From NCBI GenBank assembly GCA_963575745.1, contig CAUYUJ010020615.1:719236-783235 (forward strand): a stretch of 64,000 bases of DNA, given 5' to 3'. The notes under the pieces are model-generated. The model was not told where the DNA came from. It ran no database searches and was given only the letters and a program-made list of their open reading frames with translations. Of the stretch, positions 4,233 to 62,814 are shown piece by piece. Positions within the stretch are counted from its first letter, which is position 1; every line of letters begins with the position of its first letter. Origin of the DNA: Prorocentrum cordatum (taxonomy: Eukaryota; Sar; Dinophyceae; Prorocentrales; Prorocentraceae). Position numbers and translations under genes: made by a program.

Positions 4233-4460
4233 CTGGCAGAAAACGGGGGGGAGTCACTGGGGGCTTCCATCCCGTCCCCCCTTCCCTCTCGAAAACGGGG
4301 GGGGGTCACTGGGGGTTCTAACCCCCCGCTCCCCCCCCCCGAGTCAATCATGAAAAGGAAGGGGGTCACTACCGGTTCGAACCCCTCCTCCCCCCTCCTG
4401 GAAAACCAGGGGGGGTCACTACCGGTTCAAACCCCTCCCCCCCTCCACCCCCCCTCCCCC
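4233..4460 (+). repeat. Left flank repeats of the GGGACAGT minisatellite (inverted relative to right flank)
   Basis: Four imperfect units of about 50-57 bp start near 4233, 4290, 4347 and 4397. Each has a run of G followed by GGTCACT(A/G)(C/G)..., and the last two contain GGGGGTCACTACCGGTTCGA followed by ACCCC or a close variant. The same sequence occurs in reverse complement at 5365-5600, so the two groups form an inverted pair around the central minisatellite. Confidence 0.75.
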
Positions 4461-53320: not shown

Positions 53321-54149
53321 CTCCCACAAGGAAGAGCTAAAAGGGAACAGGTGGGAAGTAGGAGGAACAGGAGGGTATATGCGAGGGCAGGAGGTACCCC
53401 AGAAAACAACAACAGTCGAAAACAACAACAGTCAGTATGGTTCGGGAAAATTGCTATTTTGGGATGGGCTGGTGGGGATACGCGAAGGTGGGGATACGCG
53501 AAGAGTGAAGAATATTCAAACATAGCCAAAAAATGCTAGAACAATCCTCCACGGACTGTTTTTCTTGTACGGACTATTCCCCGTGTAGAGGGACATGCCC
53601 GACTTAAAGCAAGATGATGACTTATTAAGAATAGGGGTAACGATTAAAACAGACGTTTATTTGCCGATCTGATTTTTCGACGGAAGGAGGACGATTGAAT
53701 AATGTCTATTGCACGTCGGCCTCGAATATTCCGTCGAATACTCATCGCACGTCGTCGTCAAAGTCTACGTCAAATAATCATTCGACGTCGACTTCAAATC
53801 TTACGTCAAATACCAAGTCTACGTCGTGGCGTGGCTGAGTACCCTGCCCCCCTCTGCGCGTGGCCACGTACCAGCGCCCCTCCCTGCAAGCGTCACGATA
53901 CGGTAAGACGAACGCCGACGAACGAACGGAAGGGACTCCGCCGGCCACGGCGGGCCTCGTCCACGAGCAGGCCCCCCGACCCACACCCGAGGAGCGGGCC
54001 GACCACGGGAGCCCTTCGGGAGCCCGAGCCCGAGACGAATGAATCAGGCCCAAGGATGAATCGGGTGAGGGCAAATCGAGCGAGGGAGCCCGAGGTTTCA
54101 GACGAAGCTGAGGAGAAGTCGGGGACAAGGATAAATTCGGGTGAGGGTA
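53321..54149. other. About 800 bases, no gene accepted
   Basis: 53400-53430 has a duplicated AACAACAACAGTC. 53700-53830 has TCAAATA/TACGTC repeats. 53880-54130 is GC-rich with overlapping frames. No recognisable product. Confidence 0.35.
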
Positions 54150-54506: not shown

Positions 54507-54805
54507 ACGACCGTAACGTCGACCCGAGAATTCTCGACCCATGCCCATGGGATCGGTTTTGACGGACCCGCGGCCCAATAAGAGCCCCCAAATGCCGAAA
54601 ACTGTCAAGCACTTCTCGTCGCGAATCTGCATCGCCCACGGAGGTCTGGGGGTCAAGACCTTGACCAGCATAGAGCATAAAGAAACCAGCCTGCATCACC
54701 GTCGAGTCGACCCTCCGTTCTTGAGGGACAGACCCTGCGACGACAAGGGGCTAAGAAACAAAGAGACCCCACCCGACCCATCTTCAAGTCGTTGGTCTCG
54801 CCCTC

Positions 54806-54849
54806 CACCCCTCCTCCTCCTCCTCCTGCTCCTCCTCCTCCTGCTCCCC
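54806..54849 (+). repeat. (TCC)n microsatellite at the LINE 3' junction
   Basis: CTCCTCCTCCTCCTGCTCCT units with the same TGC interruption as the microsatellite on the other side of the element (61160-61205). The run meets the T8 tract (oligo(A) on the minus strand) of the LINE. Confidence 0.85.
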
Positions 54850-56278
54850 TTTTTTTTGTTGGCAGCAACGCCCATGCCTCCTTCAGCGACCGATCTTTGC
54901 CGAGCTTTAGAATTTGCGAGCCACTACTGTAAAACTTGCATGACAAGCAAACAAACAAATTCGAGCAATCTGAGCAGGGGAAGGCAACGACCTTATGCCC
55001 CAACCTCAGCAGCACGCCTTGGTCCAGCCTGGAGTGTCCTGGACAGTCCCCAGGAGGAGGGGCCCGCGCCCGAGAGCCCTTAAGGCAAACTCGGCACTGC
55101 CAGAAGGACCCAACCTGCGCCCACGAGTGCCCAACATCCGGAGGAGGGTGACGAGGGGCGGGAGGGGGCCTGGACCTGGCGGCGCCTCGAAACTCAAGAC
55201 GCGGCCACAAAGGCAGCAGAACAGACCCAGCTTTTAAGACCAGACGCGCTATCTTGATCTTCCTATCGGGCTCATCAGCCTCAACAGGAGCCAAGGAGGG
55301 GTGCAATCGTGCCGCCTCTTTGGCAGCCTGGTCAGCAAAGTGGTTGCCTAGTCTTCTGAAACGTTCACTGGACGAAATGCCGCTTTCATCGACATCCCTG
55401 TGGGCCGAAACTTTGTGGAGGGCGCACAGGTTCCTTCCAAAATGGTGCTTGCCTTGCAGCACAAGACCTGTGTACTGCCTCTTGCCACAGAGCGCATCAG
55501 CACCGAGCGCCACGTGGTCCACAACATTTTGACAGTCACTGTAGCACACGGACGGGGCATCGGCATAGGCTCCACAGAACGCGAACGCAGCATACTCGGC
55601 GGCCTGGGGAGTCTGAGGTCAAGGGGCCCACACAGGCCCCTTCAGGACACCTAGGAGCCCGCCATCTTTCCCCACCACGGTCACAGCCCGGCCCGCACGC
55701 GACAGCTCTTTCACCACATGCCTGTGGCAAGAGCCGCCCATAAACAAATATCCCCACAAGCTATCCCCAGGAGCCACCCTGTCAGCACCACACGCAGGAG
55801 GAGGAGGAGGGAGGTCCTCGACATGCCACACAAGAGAGACACCACCATCACACAGAGGTCTTGGGGCAACATCTCCTGGGTGACGGAACGCCCCATACAG
55901 AAAGAGCTCTTCCTCATAATCAGGGTCCGACGTATCACAGGCAGCTTCCACGAGCCAAGCGGGTAGCACTTCCTTGCGCAGCTCGTCGCACGCCGAACAG
56001 CAAAAAAGCCGATGGTGCAAGGTGCCCTTCGCGACACCACATAACGGGCAGAGACTCGACACCTCGAAATAGCCAGCCGCCTCAGCATCGGCTCCTGTCC
56101 AGAACGCACGACAAGCTTGAGCTCTCATGGCACCCTTGGCCTTGGCGGGGATCTTGGACGACGAGAGCTGCTGCTTGACCACATCCCAACACAGCCTGTA
56201 CCCCACCCCGTACTTATCTCCAGAATCCCGCTCCAGGTTTCTGAGCACCGCGTCACGACACAAGACCTTGACTAAGCG
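54850..56278 (-). pseudogene. LINE ORF2 3' part: zinc finger, RNase H, C-terminal zinc domain
   Basis: Frame restored after the homopolymer slip at 56278-56285. CPLCGVAKGTLHHRLFCC (about 56060-56010) is a C-x2-C...H...C zinc finger typical between RT and RNase H in these elements. RNase H follows: LFMGGSCHRHVVKELSRAG holds the place where the first catalytic Asp is expected in the pattern DGS, but this copy has Gly (GGC). Then a TGA at 55619-55621 falls between GPVWAP and PQTPQAAEYAAFAFCG (Glu present). YSDCQNVVD (Asp present) and RLGNHFADQAA (last Asp present) complete the domain, with KVSAHRDVDE between. Further on, CRVC and CSDC/CLSC pairs form a second zinc domain. The frame runs into the A8 tract without a clear stop. 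Confidence 0.8.
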
Positions 56279-58390
56279 GGGGGGGAAAGCGTCAGCGAAA
56301 TGTCCCTTCCAAAGTCGTCCCTGAGGGTGGTAAAATCGGGCATATCCCACCCCAGACGGTAGATACACATGCGGAGGGCCGAGAGCGGCCCACGAACTTT
56401 AGACCACGAGTGGATGTCGTGGCTGAAGGTCTGCATCCAGCCCTCACGCAGATCCGCCCAAGACAAACACCACGGGAACGCACGAGTGTGGCACAACCAG
56501 ATTTTTTTCGACCATCTGAGAATCGGCGCCACACTCGCTCGCCAGCACGGGTCTCCCTCAAGCAGGCTGAGCACGGCAAGGGAGCGCCCTTGCGAGCGTG
56601 GCTTAACACAAGACATAGCAGCACGACGCAAGGTCAGGAGCTCGGCATCGGACACCCCGAATATGTCGGACCCGTAGGTCCCACCAGCCAGAGGCCCCGC
56701 AGCAAAAACCTTCAAGCTGCGCCTCCCGAGGACGTCCCCAATATGTTTGAGCCTCCTGGTCTTGCGAAGCGCAGTCGCAAGACGAGCTTTAAACTTGGCC
56801 GCCCGGCCACGGCCAGGAGCCCTCAGGGATCGGTCCGCCGTGTAGTCAACCCCCAAGCTCGTAACTCTTCCTACACCCACTCCTTGGCCAGCCAGGTGCC
56901 CAGGTTTCTGGAGGAGCGGAGAGGCGACTTCATTGTTGCTAGCAACCATCCCCACTTTGTCCATGGCGAGAAGGCACTGCAGCTCATCAGTGATGCACTT
57001 GTGGAGCGCTCGGGCTCCGCCCACCAGCGCACGAACAACCTGCCTGGCGCTGCCCGTGCAGCTGAGACCCAGGTCATCAACATACGCGTCGAAGTCCAAG
57101 CCTGGCGACCGAGGGAGCGAGTCGAAGCTGGCCAAAGCGAAAACCCTGATCAAGCTAGTGGCGAACGAGCAGCCCGCCACGATGCCCCTGATGACGAAAT
57201 AAGGCCCTTCGACATAGCCTCCAGGGGCCATGTATATAGCGGTAGCATACGCGCGAATGGCCAGCCTAGCGATACCGAGAGGAAACCCGTGTTGTCGGCA
57301 CCTGGCATAGAGCAAACGAAGGTCGATATGCTCATAATACTTCCGAACGTCTCAGAAAATTGAGGCCGACACTTCGCCACGGCTGAGTCCCGCCTCGGCC
57401 TTAAAGGCTTGCCGCCACACCACGTCAGAGGCGCCCCTGTTGGCACCCGCCGCCCAGAAGTCCCGAGGGTTGTTGCCTTCCCAGCGTTGCGCAAACGACC
57501 GACGGGCCCGCCCCCAGAGGCGGTGCCAACTGGGGAACACCCCGATAAGCCGAAAGCCCCCAGCGGGCTTGCCCAAAAGGGCAATGAGAACCCAGGAAAT
57601 CTGGTGCGGCAGGGAGCCCGTGGCCTCCATGACACAAAACCAGAGGGCGAGGCAGTGAAGGGCCTGATCACAGAGCAGCGAGAAATGACGGCAATGAAAA
57701 CCATCAACACTCACAGCACTGGACAGCCGATACTTCTTAGAAAAGGCACGCAGCTCAGAAGGCTGAAGGACAGGCAGGGGTTCGAGAAACGAGTCATCAA
57801 TGCCCTTCCCGTCCCCATCCCCCCAAATAGACGCAAACTTATCAGCCTCGGTCTCCAAGAGGGCCATGGGGTCCGCAACCATGATGCCCCCAGCCGTGAG
57901 CGTGGTCGTGGGGGTCCAAGGCTCGGGGTCACGAATGGCACGCTGAGCATTACGACTGTCCTTTTCCAACCCTTCTCGAACCCATTCCTGCCAAGACGCC
58001 TTAGACCTGGCAGCAGCCGCGACCTTAGCATTCGAACGGGCCTGATCGACCGAGTCGAGCAGGACTTCAAGATCCGCGCGCAGGGAGCCAACAACATCAC
58101 TGGGCTCTCCGCCTTCAGGATCGCAGAGACCATCATCATCGCCCGACTGACCTGGCAACGCACGCGAGTGCAATCCCCCTGGGCCACCTTGGCTAGGAGG
58201 TTGTCCAGACCTAAAATCGAAGCCGCGCTGGGAAGAAACGTGGGGACGAGAGAGATCCAGGCAGCGGGCAACTAAGCCAACACTAGCCTGAAAGAACTGG
58301 TGCCAGTCGGAGTCGGCCTGCACAGCGACCTCGACGGGCACTGAAACGATGTCGAGAGCCCCCATGCGCACGAAGCTGAGCAGCCAGCCA
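56279..58390 (-). pseudogene. LINE ORF2 reverse transcriptase
   Basis: Motifs in order: VSVDGFHCRHFSLL (fingers), VLIALLGKPAGGFRLIGVFP (motif 1/2 region), SASIF-stop-DVRKYYEHI (motif A, catalytic Asp present), YFVIRGIVAGCSFATSLIRV (motif B) and FDAYVDDLGLSCTG (motif C with the YVDD pair). The stop is TGA at 57352-57354 immediately before the motif A Asp, where related elements commonly have Trp, so a TGG to TGA change is likely. The frame is otherwise continuous for about 700 codons, and C-terminal sequence (LGWDMPDFTTLRDDFG) matches the region after the thumb. The copy cannot make a whole RT. Confidence 0.85.
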
Positions 58391-59727
58391 CGTGATGGAC
58401 CTAAGGCTGGGGTCCTTGACTTTGCCCGCAGGTTTAATAACCGATTTCCACACAAGCTTGGGGCGTTTACCTCTCATGCCGAGGGCGGGAAGCTCAACCC
58501 CCAAGACTTTGGCCAAGTCAGACTCGGCCACATTGGCCCACAAACGATACCCCGGCGTAAGAAGGCCCCTGGCTTTCTGCAGATCCCCCGACAGAGCAGC
58601 CCTGTGAGCGGCTTCGGCCTTGGCGGTAGCCTCGGACCAATCCCCAGGGCACGGCTGAGGCCCCACAGGCGCCGACGGAGGCAAGTCGGGGGGGCGGCGG
58701 AACGCGGGGGCTTTCAGAGAGCCGAGGGACGGGTGAAATTTAATGGCCGCAGGCTTATGCGGGGAAATATCCGACTCAGTGACCACTCTGACTTGCTGCA
58801 AGCACCGTCCCAAGGCTTCAGAGAGAACGAAAAAAACCAAAGGTGTCAGGACCCCCCCTCCCCCCCCCCTCCAGAGGGGAAGTGGGCGTGCCCATCAGCA
58901 GACGCAATGGCCCCTTTCAGAAGCTCCGCAAAGTTGGTTTCAAACAAGACCCCAGGAGAGAAATGGAAATCACCAGCGACGACAACATCACAACCCTGGG
59001 ATTCAAGAAAGATACCGACAGCCCGAAGGATTTCCATGTTAGCTTCCGACAGTCCTTGAGAGTGGACCAGGTAGACCGACACGATGGCGATCGGAGCACA
59101 TCCAGGAACGTGAGTCAGAGCAGCGGCTGCTCGCCCTTCAGCAAGAACCACTCCAGAAGCTTCGTAGCATCCAAGTCCGTCACGAGCCGCCACAACAACT
59201 CCCGAAGAAACACCACCACCTTCACCGAGCACACCAGGCGCCCAAACAGTCTTGAACCCAGCCTTCTTGCAGATATCCGACTTCTGGTCGATGTCCGAGG
59301 CTCTGAGGCGATGCTCTTGGCCAATGACAACGTGGGCCGACGTAGTCTCCAGAAACTTGTAGAACGTGCCCCAAGAGTTCCCGTTGACAGTGGCAATCTC
59401 CAGCTGGAAATCCGAGAACCCAGAGGGAGCAGGAAGAGGAACGGGCCTCGGGGGCTCCAAGGGCTTGGATCCTGGGGCACCTTGGACGTCAGCAGGGACC
59501 AAGGGCGCAACCCAAGAATTGGCCTCGGGAGTGGCGGCTCGAAAGACAGACTGGAACCTTTTAAAAAGCCTGATACCAGAGACTCTGGATTTCGAACCTA
59601 CGACCGAGGCTCGAGAGGCAAAACAGTCAAAAACAAACCGAAATCCAGCAACACAAGATTCGCTAATGCCAGAGAGTCCCCCCCCCCCCTCAAGACGAGG
59701 GGGAGGCGCCACCTGACTCACTGGCAT
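58391..59727 (-). pseudogene. LINE ORF2 N-terminal APE-type endonuclease
   Basis: The likely start is ATG at 59727, overlapping the end of ORF1 by 38 bases in another frame, a common LINE arrangement. Motifs: TVNGNSW (Asn), VVIGQEHRL (catalytic Glu), IVSVYLVHS (Tyr/His), VVVAGDFHFSP and, after a frameshift in the G runs at 58852-58869, ESDISPHKPAAIKF (final His). The usual GDFN is GDFH here (CAT for Asn), which may impair the enzyme by itself. The domain nicks target DNA to prime reverse transcription. Past it, a GCTG duplication at 58381-58390 shifts the frame into the RT. Confidence 0.8.
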
Positions 59728-60973
59728 GAAGAGCCGCATCTGCGCGCGCACGGATATCTGCTGGCGGCGCCTCGACTGGCACCTGCTGGCTGCACCCAGC
59801 CGTCGGGGATGGTTCGCCCTCACCACCAGGAGCGGCAGCTGCAGCGGCCTCAGCACCGCCGACGCCCCCACCAGCCTCATGAAGCCCATCTTCACGCTTG
59901 CGACGCTTGCCAGCCACACGAGCCTTATGCGCTTGATGCGCTGCCTGGGCGGACTTGGCCTGGTCAACTGCCTGCTGGAACAGTGTCTTGGCCATGTCCG
60001 CAATGCCCTGAGACAAGAGCGCCGTGCGCTTCTGCATCTCCTCGCGATCTTCAGCCGACAACTCGAGCTCGTCGTCGTCGCCGAAGTCCTCGAGGATGTC
60101 GCCGCTGATGATGGAGCCGATGTCCACAGAGCCTGACAGTAAGTCCTCGAGCTTGAGCTTTGCCGTCTCAACGTTGGGCACGACCTTCGAATCAGCAGCC
60201 AGCTTCTGGACCGCCTCTTTGTACACCCTGTCAGCTTCCTGCAACTCGCCGCGCACACGCTTGACCTTCTCGTTCTGCTCCTGAACCTCGGACTGCAGAC
60301 GGAGGAGCCTCGCAAGGTCGCCCTCCAGCTGCTTCTCAAGACGCCGAACAAGCGTGTGATGTTGCTGGGCAGCCTGATGTGCCGAGACTGGCTGCTTAGC
60401 ACGCTCCTCAGTAGCCGCCAGCGACTTCGCAAAGGAAGAATACTTGGTGGCACCTGCCTTGCCGCCAGCCTTCTCACACAGTCGAGCCAACTCCGACGCC
60501 TCATCCTTGGACAATTTGGGCACTGCTCCCACTGGCAAAGGCGACAGCTGGCCAGCTCCAGCCTCGACGGGACCAGGCTGAGGTGCGCCGCCTGCCCATG
60601 AATCAACCCAACCGCCGTGTCCTCTGCCCTTGCCGCCGCCGCCCTTGCCCCCCTTGCCGCCAATGCCGCCGCCTGTGAAGCCTCCACCTTTGCCCCCCAT
60701 GAGCGGGCCGAGATGGAAGAACGAGCCTGGGGGCAACGCAGGACGTGCCCATGACCCTTGAGCAGCAGGTGGACGACCGACAGCGAGGCGAGGCAATAGA
60801 GCACTGCAATGGTAGCAATGAATGTCATCTGGAGTATTCTTCTTGCAACCACAGCCTGGGCACGCAACTCCCTGGCCTTGCTTCTTCTTCCCCTTCCGAC
60901 CTCCTTGAACAACTGTCCACTCATCTGGACGCACCCACGGCGCATACGAGAAAGCAGCGGGCGCTGGAACCAT
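59690..60973 (-). CDS. LINE ORF1 protein (zinc ribbon, Gly-rich, coiled coil)
   Basis: 427 codons from ATG 60973 to TGA 59690-59692; I prefer this start to the longer frame because it is the first ATG after the spliced leader. Residues about 1-35 are mixed, with an Arg/Lys-rich patch (GGRKGKKKQGQG). About 35-55 is a zinc ribbon, CPGCGCKKNTPDDIHCYHC (C-x2-C, C-x2-C). About 90-120 is a Gly/Lys-rich tract (GGKGGKGGGGKGRGHGG). About 150-290 is a long charged helix, probably a coiled coil (QQHHTLVRRLEKQLEGDLAR). Then an acidic stretch (DFGDDDELELSAED), a second helix and an Ala/Pro-rich end. It probably binds the element RNA. The frame is intact in this copy. Confidence 0.7.
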   Translation of the reverse strand: MVPAPAAFSYAPWVRPDEWTVVQGGRKGKKKQGQGVACPGCGCKKNTPDDIHCYHCSALLPRLAVGRPPAAQGSWARPALPPGSFFHLGPLMGGKGGGFTGGGIGGKGGKGGGGKGRGHGGWVDSWAGGAPQPGPVEAGAGQLSPLPVGAVPKLSKDEASELARLCEKAGGKAGATKYSSFAKSLAATEERAKQPVSAHQAAQQHHTLVRRLEKQLEGDLARLLRLQSEVQEQNEKVKRVRGELQEADRVYKEAVQKLAADSKVVPNVETAKLKLEDLLSGSVDIGSIISGDILEDFGDDDELELSAEDREEMQKRTALLSQGIADMAKTLFQQAVDQAKSAQAAHQAHKARVAGKRRKREDGLHEAGGGVGGAEAAAAAAPGGEGEPSPTAGCSQQVPVEAPPADIRARADAALHASESGGASPSS

Positions 60974-61123
60974 CGAAGGACGATGTTGGGAGGAGAAACG
61001 AAGTTCCGCACACAAGACGTAATAGTGAGTATGGACCTGGCGGGCGAACGCCAGGGAAAGCAGTCGGGGGCCGCGAATCCCCCCCCGCCACAAACTCAAA
61101 GTCCCATGAGCAATGCCTCCGGA

Positions 61124-61145
61124 CTTGAGCCAAAATGGCTACGGA
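61124..61145 (-). other. Relict dinoflagellate spliced leader (DinoSL)
   Basis: All 22 positions match the conserved DinoSL, whose core reads CCGTAGCCATTTTGGCTCAA, with T at the variable first position and G at the end. The SL is normally added to mRNA 5' ends by trans-splicing and is not encoded in genes. Its presence directly at the LINE 5' end means this copy was made from a trans-spliced mRNA. No splice-donor GT follows it (TCCGG follows), so it is not an SL RNA gene. Confidence 0.93.
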
Positions 61146-61270
61146 CCCTCCTCCTGAAAGGAGTCCTCCTGCTCCTCCTCCTCCTGCTCCTCCTCCTCCT
61201 CCTGCTCGTCCTCCTACTCCTCCTCCTCCTCCTCCTCCTCCTCCTCCTCCTCCTCCTCTTCCTCCTCCAC
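61146..61270 (+). repeat. (TCC)n microsatellite at the LINE 5' junction
   Basis: CCCTCCTCCTGAAAGGAGTC, then CTCCTGCTCCTCCTCCTCCT with regular TGC interruptions. See 54806-54849 for the matching left side. Confidence 0.9.
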
Positions 61271-62814
61271 GTCACTCCTTCTCCTCCTCCTCCTCCTCTT
61301 CCTCCTACGCATCTGCCCTCCTCCTCCTTCTCCTCCGACCTCCTCCTCCTACGCATCTGCCCCCCTCCTCCTCCGTCTTCCAGCGGGCGGCTGTGGTGGT
61401 GGCGGCCGGAGGCGCCTTCAGATCTTGCAGTCATCTTCATCGGAGGGGACACCTCCGTCTCCGACCCCGCTCTCGGCGCTCCGTTTGCTGCTGCCGCCGC
61501 CGAGGGAGAGGCGTGCCCGGAGATCCCCGCCCTCCTCTCTCTCCTCCTGCTGCTCCCCCCTCTCTGCAACCTCCCCCATCCTCCATCCTCCCCTACCCTC
61601 TTCTCCCACTCCTCTTGCACCTCCTGCTGATTCTCCTCCTGCTGCTCTCCTCGTCATCAGCGCCGTCCTCATGATCCTCGTCCTCGGCTCTTCTCCTCCT
61701 CCCCCTCCTGCTCCTCCACCTCCTCAGCTTGCCTCCTCTCGTCTCCACCTCCCTCCCCTCACCCGCCCCCGCCCCCCCATTCTCCTCATCCATCGTCCTT
61801 CCTTCTCCTCCCGCCCACTTTTCCTGCCGAAGATGTCAAGGCTCAAGCCCGAGCCAGCAAAATGTCGGCGGGGCGATCCTCGACGCCTTCGAAGCGCTGA
61901 GACAGCAGCGGCCCTCGGGCAGGCCACATCGCACGCAGAGGCGTCCCGAGGAAGGGCAGCAGCAGTTGCTTTGAGCAGGAGGGGATCGGCATAGAGAGCG
62001 CGAAGAAGTCGGGAGGAACAACGCCCTCCTCACCCGAGGTGCCGCCGCCCTCTGACTCCTCTGCGGTGGGACAGGGTTGGAGTGAAGGTGCCTTATCTCT
62101 TGCCATCACTGGAGGAGTCCCCACACCTTCGCCTCTCTGCATGACATCCTTATGATTCTCCTTCGTTAACGCCCTTGCGTTCCTCCTGCTGCTCCCTACT
62201 GTCGCTCCAGCTCCGCTCCGACCTTCCTCCTCGCTCCTGTACTTCCTCGTGGTATCCCGAAACCAATAACGTGGGGTCCAATCTCCAAACCAATTCCACC
62301 TTCCGACTCGAACCATCCCCCACACGCTGGGGATGCCTCAACCCGGGCAAGCGCCAACCTTGGTCACCCGTGGCCATGCCGCATACCCCGACCAGGTCGC
62401 ATGGCAGCTCCCAAACCCGGATCCACGGAGAGACAGGAAGAAAGGTCCGCCACACGTGGCTCCCAAACTGAAGGGGCCCTGGGACACACAAATGAATAGA
62501 CACAAATAACAGGATTCCGTGTTATCTTCCCATATTTTCTGGGTTTTTGCCTTCTCCCCCACTTCCCATATTTTCCCATATTTTGTGTGGAATCGACGAT
62601 TCATTGTGTCTGTGTGTTTTTCACCTCCTGACAAACACGGGTCAGCCTGAAGCGCTGACCCCGATGCGTGCGCCTTGAGCGCACGTCCTGGCCACCACGC
62701 CAGCGACCTTCTCGCGCGGCGCCCTGCTGCCCCGGGCATCCGACGTCTTGCTTTTGTCGATGCGGTGGTTCCTGGAAACACCAACCACCAACCCCTTCGG
62801 CAGGGCAGGCTTTC
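61271..62814. other. CT-rich DNA, no gene accepted
   Basis: 61271-61820 is pyrimidine-rich with many TCC and CTC clusters and gives Ser/Pro/Leu frames. 61830-62800 has more ordinary composition, but frames overlap on both strands with no recognisable domain. TTTCCCATATTTT is repeated at 62525-62585. Confidence 0.35.

Follow-up and report, generated by a model that had tools for sequence, protein, structure and literature searches.

The stretch of DNA that we analysed (64,000 nucleotides; the window) carries a complete copy of the dinoflagellate spliced leader (SL) on its minus strand. The sequence TCCGTAGCCATTTTGGCTCAAG at 61145..61124 is identical to the DinoSL DCCGTAGCCATTTTGGCTCAAG at all 22 positions, and this is the sole site in the window with three or fewer mismatches, the next best site having seven. 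Among 100 shuffles, no match was found. From 61146 onward, upstream of the SL, runs an interrupted GGA tract on the LINE strand (reported by TRF as TCC, 61164-61350), and on the other side lies a LINE, with a spacing of 150 nt between the SL and ORF1 (ATG at 60973). On its 3′ side the SL reads on into TCCGGAGG, which starts with TC and not with the GT donor typical of an SL RNA gene. The original prediction had described a 22/22 DinoSL match on the minus strand, at the boundary between a LINE and a TCC microsatellite and about 150 nt ahead of the ORF1 start; it was right on each of these points. The microsatellite is indeed present next to the SL, but it needs to be read as the insertion target, found on both sides of the element, rather than as a chance neighbour.

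All parts of the element lie on the minus strand. Its first base is 61145, at which the outer SL (61124..61145) starts, followed with 0 nt between them by a second, decayed but untruncated SL relic (61105..61123) and then by the rest of the 5′ UTR (60974..61104, recognised by DNA search). ORF1 (59690..60973, 427 aa) is open in the window copy, has homologues in other SL-headed loci (tblastn) and contains, by eye, a zinc-ribbon-like motif. ORF2 lies in another frame and starts with an AP-endonuclease-like stretch (58849..59619), which was assigned from motif and order; a homologous stretch exists in L049-L051, L054, L056 and L057, and no significant match was found in Pfam, NCBIfam or PDB. Further along are a reverse transcriptase part (57025..57366; Pfam RVT_1, E 0.022) with a YVDD motif in the expected place (57084..57073), and a zf-RVT-like zinc region (55988..56161; Pfam zf-RVT, E 0.036), both matches scoring under the curated gathering cut-off. 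An RNase H-like stretch then follows, read by eye and without a library match.

Single-sequence structure models were poor (mean pLDDT 36.7 for the reverse transcriptase and 45.0 for the endonuclease-like stretch), and a PDB fold search gave nothing at E < 0.001. By a simple codon-periodicity score, the assigned frame comes out ahead in 20 of 23 scored intervals between 60895 and 55395; two of the exceptions, 60895 and 56645, favour another frame and the third, 59895, spans the ORF junction. This score is supportive and not specific, as the interval at 53395, outside the element, scores as high as 32. The domains, recognised weakly as they are, may fit a LINE with an AP-type endonuclease. Characteristic of LINEs are also the dispersed copies with a common poly(A) 3′ end, some of them 5′-truncated (e.g. 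L035).

The window copy is a dead LINE copy. At least three frame changes, together with two in-frame TGA codons, interrupt its ORF2, and about 158 nt (135 compared with L095) are missing between 54894 and 54893. The missing piece is present in all six sibling 3′ ends that were read and, in the one sibling translated (L094), holds the ORF2 stop and UTR. Behind this gap come a final piece of 3′ UTR (54858..54893, from alignment to sibling 3′ ends) and eight A residues (54850..54857), the remains of a poly(A) tail that mark the 3′ end of the element. Searching with the 3′ region yielded 22 matches at 88% or more; for 14 of these, a 5′ end was listed on the same contig. When the 300 nt preceding the SL were compared with the 1.8 kb that follow the A8, the matches listed were GGA repeats. 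No 5′ ribozyme was found with Rfam in 60800-61200 up to E 10, and homology searches recovered no relatives elsewhere in the 64-kb window or in the viral_contigs, genome_contigs, plasmids and phages collections.

Sibling copies were sought in the window's own genome (4,128,499,153 bases, 21,875 contigs) with the 524 nt downstream of the SL as query, the SL itself excluded. This yielded 97 candidates; scoring covered 40 of them, and all 40 matched. We read the best 30, matches 31 to 40 being mostly short. Shared flanks identify two duplicated pairs of loci (L052/L053 and L062/L063), so that the 30 loci represent 28 independent insertions. They fall into three groups, whose identity to the window copy is 88-100% in A (L034-L047), 67-75% in B (L048-L057) and about 73% in C (L058-L063).

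Among these best 30 of 40 scored matches, the SL directly heads the element in 27 of the 28 independent insertions. The leader is perfect over the 21 bases after a variable first base in 19 of the 27, and shows one to three changes or one deletion in the other eight. L035, the sole exception, starts within the inner SL relic and adjoins its GGA flank. Upstream, the copies have little in common: from 150 to 1450 nt ahead of the element no stretch of 150 nt or more is shared, barring the two duplicated pairs, and the 70 nt adjoining the element are repeat or unshared sequence in the copies read. No copy among the best 30 matches had homologous sequence extending upstream without an SL. The SL heads and the unshared flanks support two claims of the original prediction, namely that the SL marks the exact 5′ end of the element, to which reverse transcription would have run, and that the copy would derive from a trans-spliced LINE mRNA. 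Two variants at the junction were also observed. One extra G lies between the outer SL and the inner relic in L040, L041 and L046, a subgroup in which the junction is lineage-specific, and an extra C precedes the SL (e.g. GGAGGC/TCCG) in L036, L037, L039-L041, L044, L049, L051-L054, L057 and L058.

A (GGA)n tract on the element strand lies upstream of the SL in all 28 insertions, and a TCC tract in none. The tract ends at the element (0 nt) in 19 insertions and 2-25 nt away in nine; in the window copy (5′ flank, 61146..61350) the distance is 15 nt, taken up by interrupted repeat. Random window positions have a tract within 50 nt in 50 (GGA) and 42 (TCC) of 4000 cases. On the 3′ side, six of six siblings read GGGCGTTGCTGC(C), then A6-A11 at the same place, then GGA repeats immediately or within about 10 bases. 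The window copy likewise enters GGA repeats at 54849 (3′ flank, 54802..54849). With GGA repeats on both sides, the element therefore sits inside a GGA microsatellite, and independent copies share this kind of simple repeat, upstream in all 28 insertions and downstream in the window copy and the six siblings. Because the flanks are microsatellite, a target-site duplication is unprovable in the window copy (suffix-prefix score 30, against a repeat background with a median of 24 and its 95% point at 45). A 27-mer is common to both flanks and occurs nowhere else in the window, but a suffix-prefix score of this size is usual in tracts of this kind. Waldo and Kibi are microsatellite-targeting LINEs of the R1 clade in animals. 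As a separate observation, the plus strand reads TCC in all 19 tracts found in the window (1-64000; 80% over 36 nt) and GGA in none of them.

Between groups, the outer SL is 0.936-0.987 identical, compared to 0.694-0.735 for the next 100 nt of UTR and 0.640-0.767 for the 22 nt after the SL (L035 and L063 excluded, L052 and L053 both included). Since copying alone would let the SL diverge along with the neighbouring UTR, the outer SL is probably renewed in every round. Within groups the differences are slight: identities of SL, inner relic and UTR are 0.993, 0.933 and 0.880 in A, 0.897, 0.894 and 0.844 in B, and 0.982, 1.000 and 0.972 in C. Decay of the outer SL has gone furthest in group B (identity to the canonical SL 0.945), in line with older insertions; this decay alone does not separate renewal from constraint.

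A constant SL could also be maintained by selection on the DNA, without re-splicing each time. The SL would then be a fixed part of the element, such as a promoter or start-site element acting through TTT(G), that is inherited by copying and not trans-spliced anew. Song et al. 2018 proposed, for retrogenes, that the TTT(G) of the DinoSL has a promoter function (PMC6050394), the SL/TCCG junction is constant, and in subfamily B the outer SL is no better kept than the inner relic. A fixed DNA element fits poorly with an SL that is 94-99% identical between subfamilies next to 100 nt at 69-74%, and whose first base varies between T, A and G. It also has to account for the same 22 nt occurring exactly 12,939 times in the genome (6551 + 6388; reversed control 0), ahead of many different sequences among the 58 distinct sites read. 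Furthermore, the inner relic of the window subfamily has lost part of its TTTT core and the family was copied on regardless. We consider a fixed DNA element unlikely, though not negligibly so, and favour renewal by trans-splicing.

The inner relic aligns over the full length of the SL; 16 of the 19 aligned bases match, with one 3-nt gap. The score of this alignment is reached by 3 of 127,899 window 30-mers, by 1 of 3000 shuffled SLs and by 4 of 80,000 30-mers taken from shuffled UTR; over five scoring schemes the window rate is 0 to 2.8e-4. In the three groups the relic is 0.74-0.77 identical to the SL, against a mean of 0.475 and a maximum of 0.625 for 585 other UTR 22-mers from 15 copies. 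Genome-wide, the SL followed by TCCGNAG (two or fewer mismatches) occurs at 2,240 sites, with none in the control, and 25 of 30 such loci carry an untruncated relic by a 9-of-12 test while five do not. The pattern TCCG...CTCA(A/T)G might nonetheless be a chance resemblance or a functional UTR element and not a relic, given that it was first spotted by eye, with the statistics added afterwards, and that the 16/19 match includes a gap. With three null models giving about 2e-5 to 3e-4, and with its recurrence in three subfamilies and across the genome, we regard this as quite improbable.

Stacked relics usually lack their first seven bases and read CCATTTTGGCTCAAG, as described in PMC12014239. 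In the window this truncated form scores at chance level (p 0.19 to 0.71 over five scorings) and the untruncated relic is present instead; a relic of the truncated type follows 5 of 30 SLs on contigs C1-C3. The original prediction had raised the matter of tandem SLs. A second SL does adjoin the outer one, but it is decayed and not intact, and a second perfect SL followed in none of 58 distinct SL sites read in two sets, one of which was chosen for TCCGNAG. The inner relic is untruncated and family-wide, and therefore old. As we read it, the relic shows an ancestor that would already have been SL-headed.

This has a bearing on whether the window copy could be an accident, that is, a processed pseudogene of a LINE mRNA whose active copies have another, promoter-bearing 5′ end. 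The window copy is dead, and Suessiales LINEs are described as old remnants in PMC8045281, both of which would suit such an accident. However, the SL head is common to 27 of 28 insertions that are 67-97% identical to the window copy (itself included), no other 5′ end was seen among the 30 loci read save the 5′-cut L035, and the inner relic implies an SL-headed ancestor. We consider an accidental pseudogene very improbable.

SLACS and CZAR are, alongside CRE, names of elements that target SL genes. That the LINE inserts in SL RNA genes in the manner of CRE/SLACS/CZAR and NeSL, which do exist (PMC3636483), with the SL being target DNA, deserves almost no credence, given that no GT donor follows the SL, that an SL suffix of at least 9 nt is absent from the rest of the window and hence from the other end, and that GGA repeats flank the window copy on both sides and the 3′ side of six of six siblings. 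In contrast, a contig read as carrying an SL RNA gene (L003) shows CTCAAG followed by GTACGC. The window thus holds what is seen in SL-tagged retrocopies, a complete genomic DinoSL directly 5′ of a copied unit with no GT after it.

Judging from these copies, we think it very probable that the LINE family multiplies through a trans-spliced, polyadenylated mRNA and targets GGA microsatellites, the window containing one dead copy. In the life cycle that we propose, a genomic copy would first be transcribed from somewhere upstream of the SL/TCCG junction. At this junction the pre-mRNA would acquire a new 22-nt spliced leader, as suggested by the constancy of the SL on diverged bodies, and it would be polyadenylated. 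Proteins of the element, presumably including a nuclease, would cut (GGA)n/(TCC)n, and the mRNA would be reverse transcribed from its poly(A) end to the first base of the SL. The expected product is (GGA)n - SL - inner SL relic - UTR - ORF1 - ORF2 - A(n) - (GGA)n, and this arrangement is the end product found in the copies read.

The likeliest acceptor would be the AG that ends the old outer SL (CTCAAG/TCCG). With the SL's own AG as acceptor, SL would be swapped for SL in each round, so that no stack accumulates. An old SL, stacked at some earlier time and later decaying within the UTR, would account for the inner relic. The data place the recurring SL junction at one spot; transcription would start somewhere upstream of it.

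SLs at such repeats are not confined to the window family. For the first-listed 30 SLs (contigs C1-C3), 20 lie within 50 nt downstream of GGA (7) or TCC (13) repeats, compared to a window background of 2.3% (binomial p 4e-26). With a strict pattern on the minus strand of the assembly, for which the rows give every site a single time, 743 SLs come within 12 nt after GGAGGAGGAGGA and 2019 after TCCTCCTCCTCC, relative to 6388 exact SLs. The resulting share of about 43% is a slight overcount, as the patterns also accept C as the first base, and refers to the minus strand only, plus-strand counts being inflated by overlapping matches.

Relatives of ORF1 were detected by tblastn in 7 of 30 loci in one set (L064-L093, including L082, which is the family copy L045) and in 1 of 30 in another (L004-L033, namely L021, which coincides in position with L064). 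In the two sets, the majority of SL-headed loci have no recognised relation to the window LINE. A zinc-ribbon-like motif no more than 700 nt from the SL was seen in 16 of 30 loci of the first set (at least one of low complexity), L067, L075, L083, L087, L089 and L091 among them, and in 6 of 30 of the second. The occurrence of such motifs near the SL suggests a wide group of SL-headed LINEs. L004, L008, L010, L020, L030 and L031 have similar bodies (ATG...), all with TCC rather than GGA upstream; target orientation seems to be family-specific.

Scans for the exact SL in other collections returned one viral contig and two contigs labelled bacterial, and no LINE was recognised on them. The viral contig (L001, IMGVR_UViG_3300045993_001077) is AT-rich, filed as viral and giant-virus-like by look. 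It has two exact DinoSLs on the minus strand, 125 nt apart (2746-2767 and 2893-2914), with the second DinoSL just ahead of a G+C-richer ORF of 254 aa (1936-2700). Its appearance is that of a viral genome into which a dinoflagellate mRNA has been copied, or of a virus carrying the leader. L003 has an apparent SL RNA gene (4334-4355, minus strand) in the spacer that separates 28S from 18S rDNA, a notable place for an SL gene, and with it ATTTTTTGG, which we take to be an Sm-like site; the contig is eukaryotic although filed in a Dehalococcoidia MAG, and thus contamination. In L002, likewise filed in a Dehalococcoidia MAG, a DinoSL (31-52) lies directly behind a (TCA)n repeat at the extreme contig end, which may reflect a chimeric contig or a transfer.

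DinoSL-tagged retrogenes were reportedly described by Slamovits and Keeling in 2008. The family described here resembles such retrogenes in being a genomic copy of a trans-spliced mRNA, with an SL at the 5′ end and older SLs stacked and decaying behind it. It differs from them in that the LINE itself is copied, in that 27 of 28 insertions are SL-headed, in its untruncated relic and in its GGA microsatellite target. SL-tagged retrogenes, stacked decaying SLs and retrotransposons as their proposed makers are all dealt with in earlier accounts (PMC6050394, PMC12014239, PMC7245778, PMC3229502). SLs near endogenous dinoRNAV copies have likewise been used to argue for LINE activity, the SL being taken as a sign of retroposition and LINEs proposed as the agent (PMC10235124). 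As described there, however, the SL lies up to 500 bp from viral genes and the LINEs 95 bp to 17 kb away, whereas here the SL starts the LINE.

Dong also inserts within simple repeats, but it belongs to the R2 group and to animals according to PMC3636483, whereas here the target is GGA/TCC, the genome is DinoSL-bearing and the element has an SL head. CRE/SLACS/CZAR and NeSL share with our family an SL sequence at the LINE boundary; as the same source has it, theirs is the SL gene as target, whereas here the SL would come from the mRNA. L1Tc, like our element, is a LINE whose host, here Trypanosoma cruzi, matures its mRNAs by trans-splicing. By the account in PMC4748587, L1Tc keeps an internal promoter (Pr77) and unspliced transcripts, whereas in our family the copies carry the SL. 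Neither SL-headed LINE families nor a GGA/TCC target came up in searches of the open-access PMC literature, outside which most subscription papers lie. SL-tagged retrocopies are already known; against this literature, SL-headed, microsatellite-targeting LINE families appear new.

As to the reverse transcriptase behind the recycling of dinoflagellate mRNA, a review favoured LTR elements of the Ty1/copia type (PMC6050394), and LINEs have been proposed from their neighbourhood (PMC10235124). We lean neither way on a broader proposal, in which many LINE families of this genome would use the SL as a self-renewing 5′ end, its terminal AG being the next acceptor, and would have no encoded promoter or 5′ end. 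Any copy in a transcribed GGA/TCC microsatellite could then be re-capped and copied, and the same microsatellite-cutting machinery would have made the genome's other SL-headed retrocopies. If true, LINEs would be the agent of dinoflagellate mRNA recycling that has long been sought. LINE copies that bear an SL, a poly(A) tail and a microsatellite target, along with 20 of the 30 SLs from contigs C1-C3 at the same kind of target, make the recycling question directly testable. The SL head inside a GGA repeat is a clear mark for tracing RNA-to-DNA copying in dinoflagellate genomes. These copies further hint at how a LINE might persist with no encoded 5′ end, taking over the trans-spliced leader of its host in each round.
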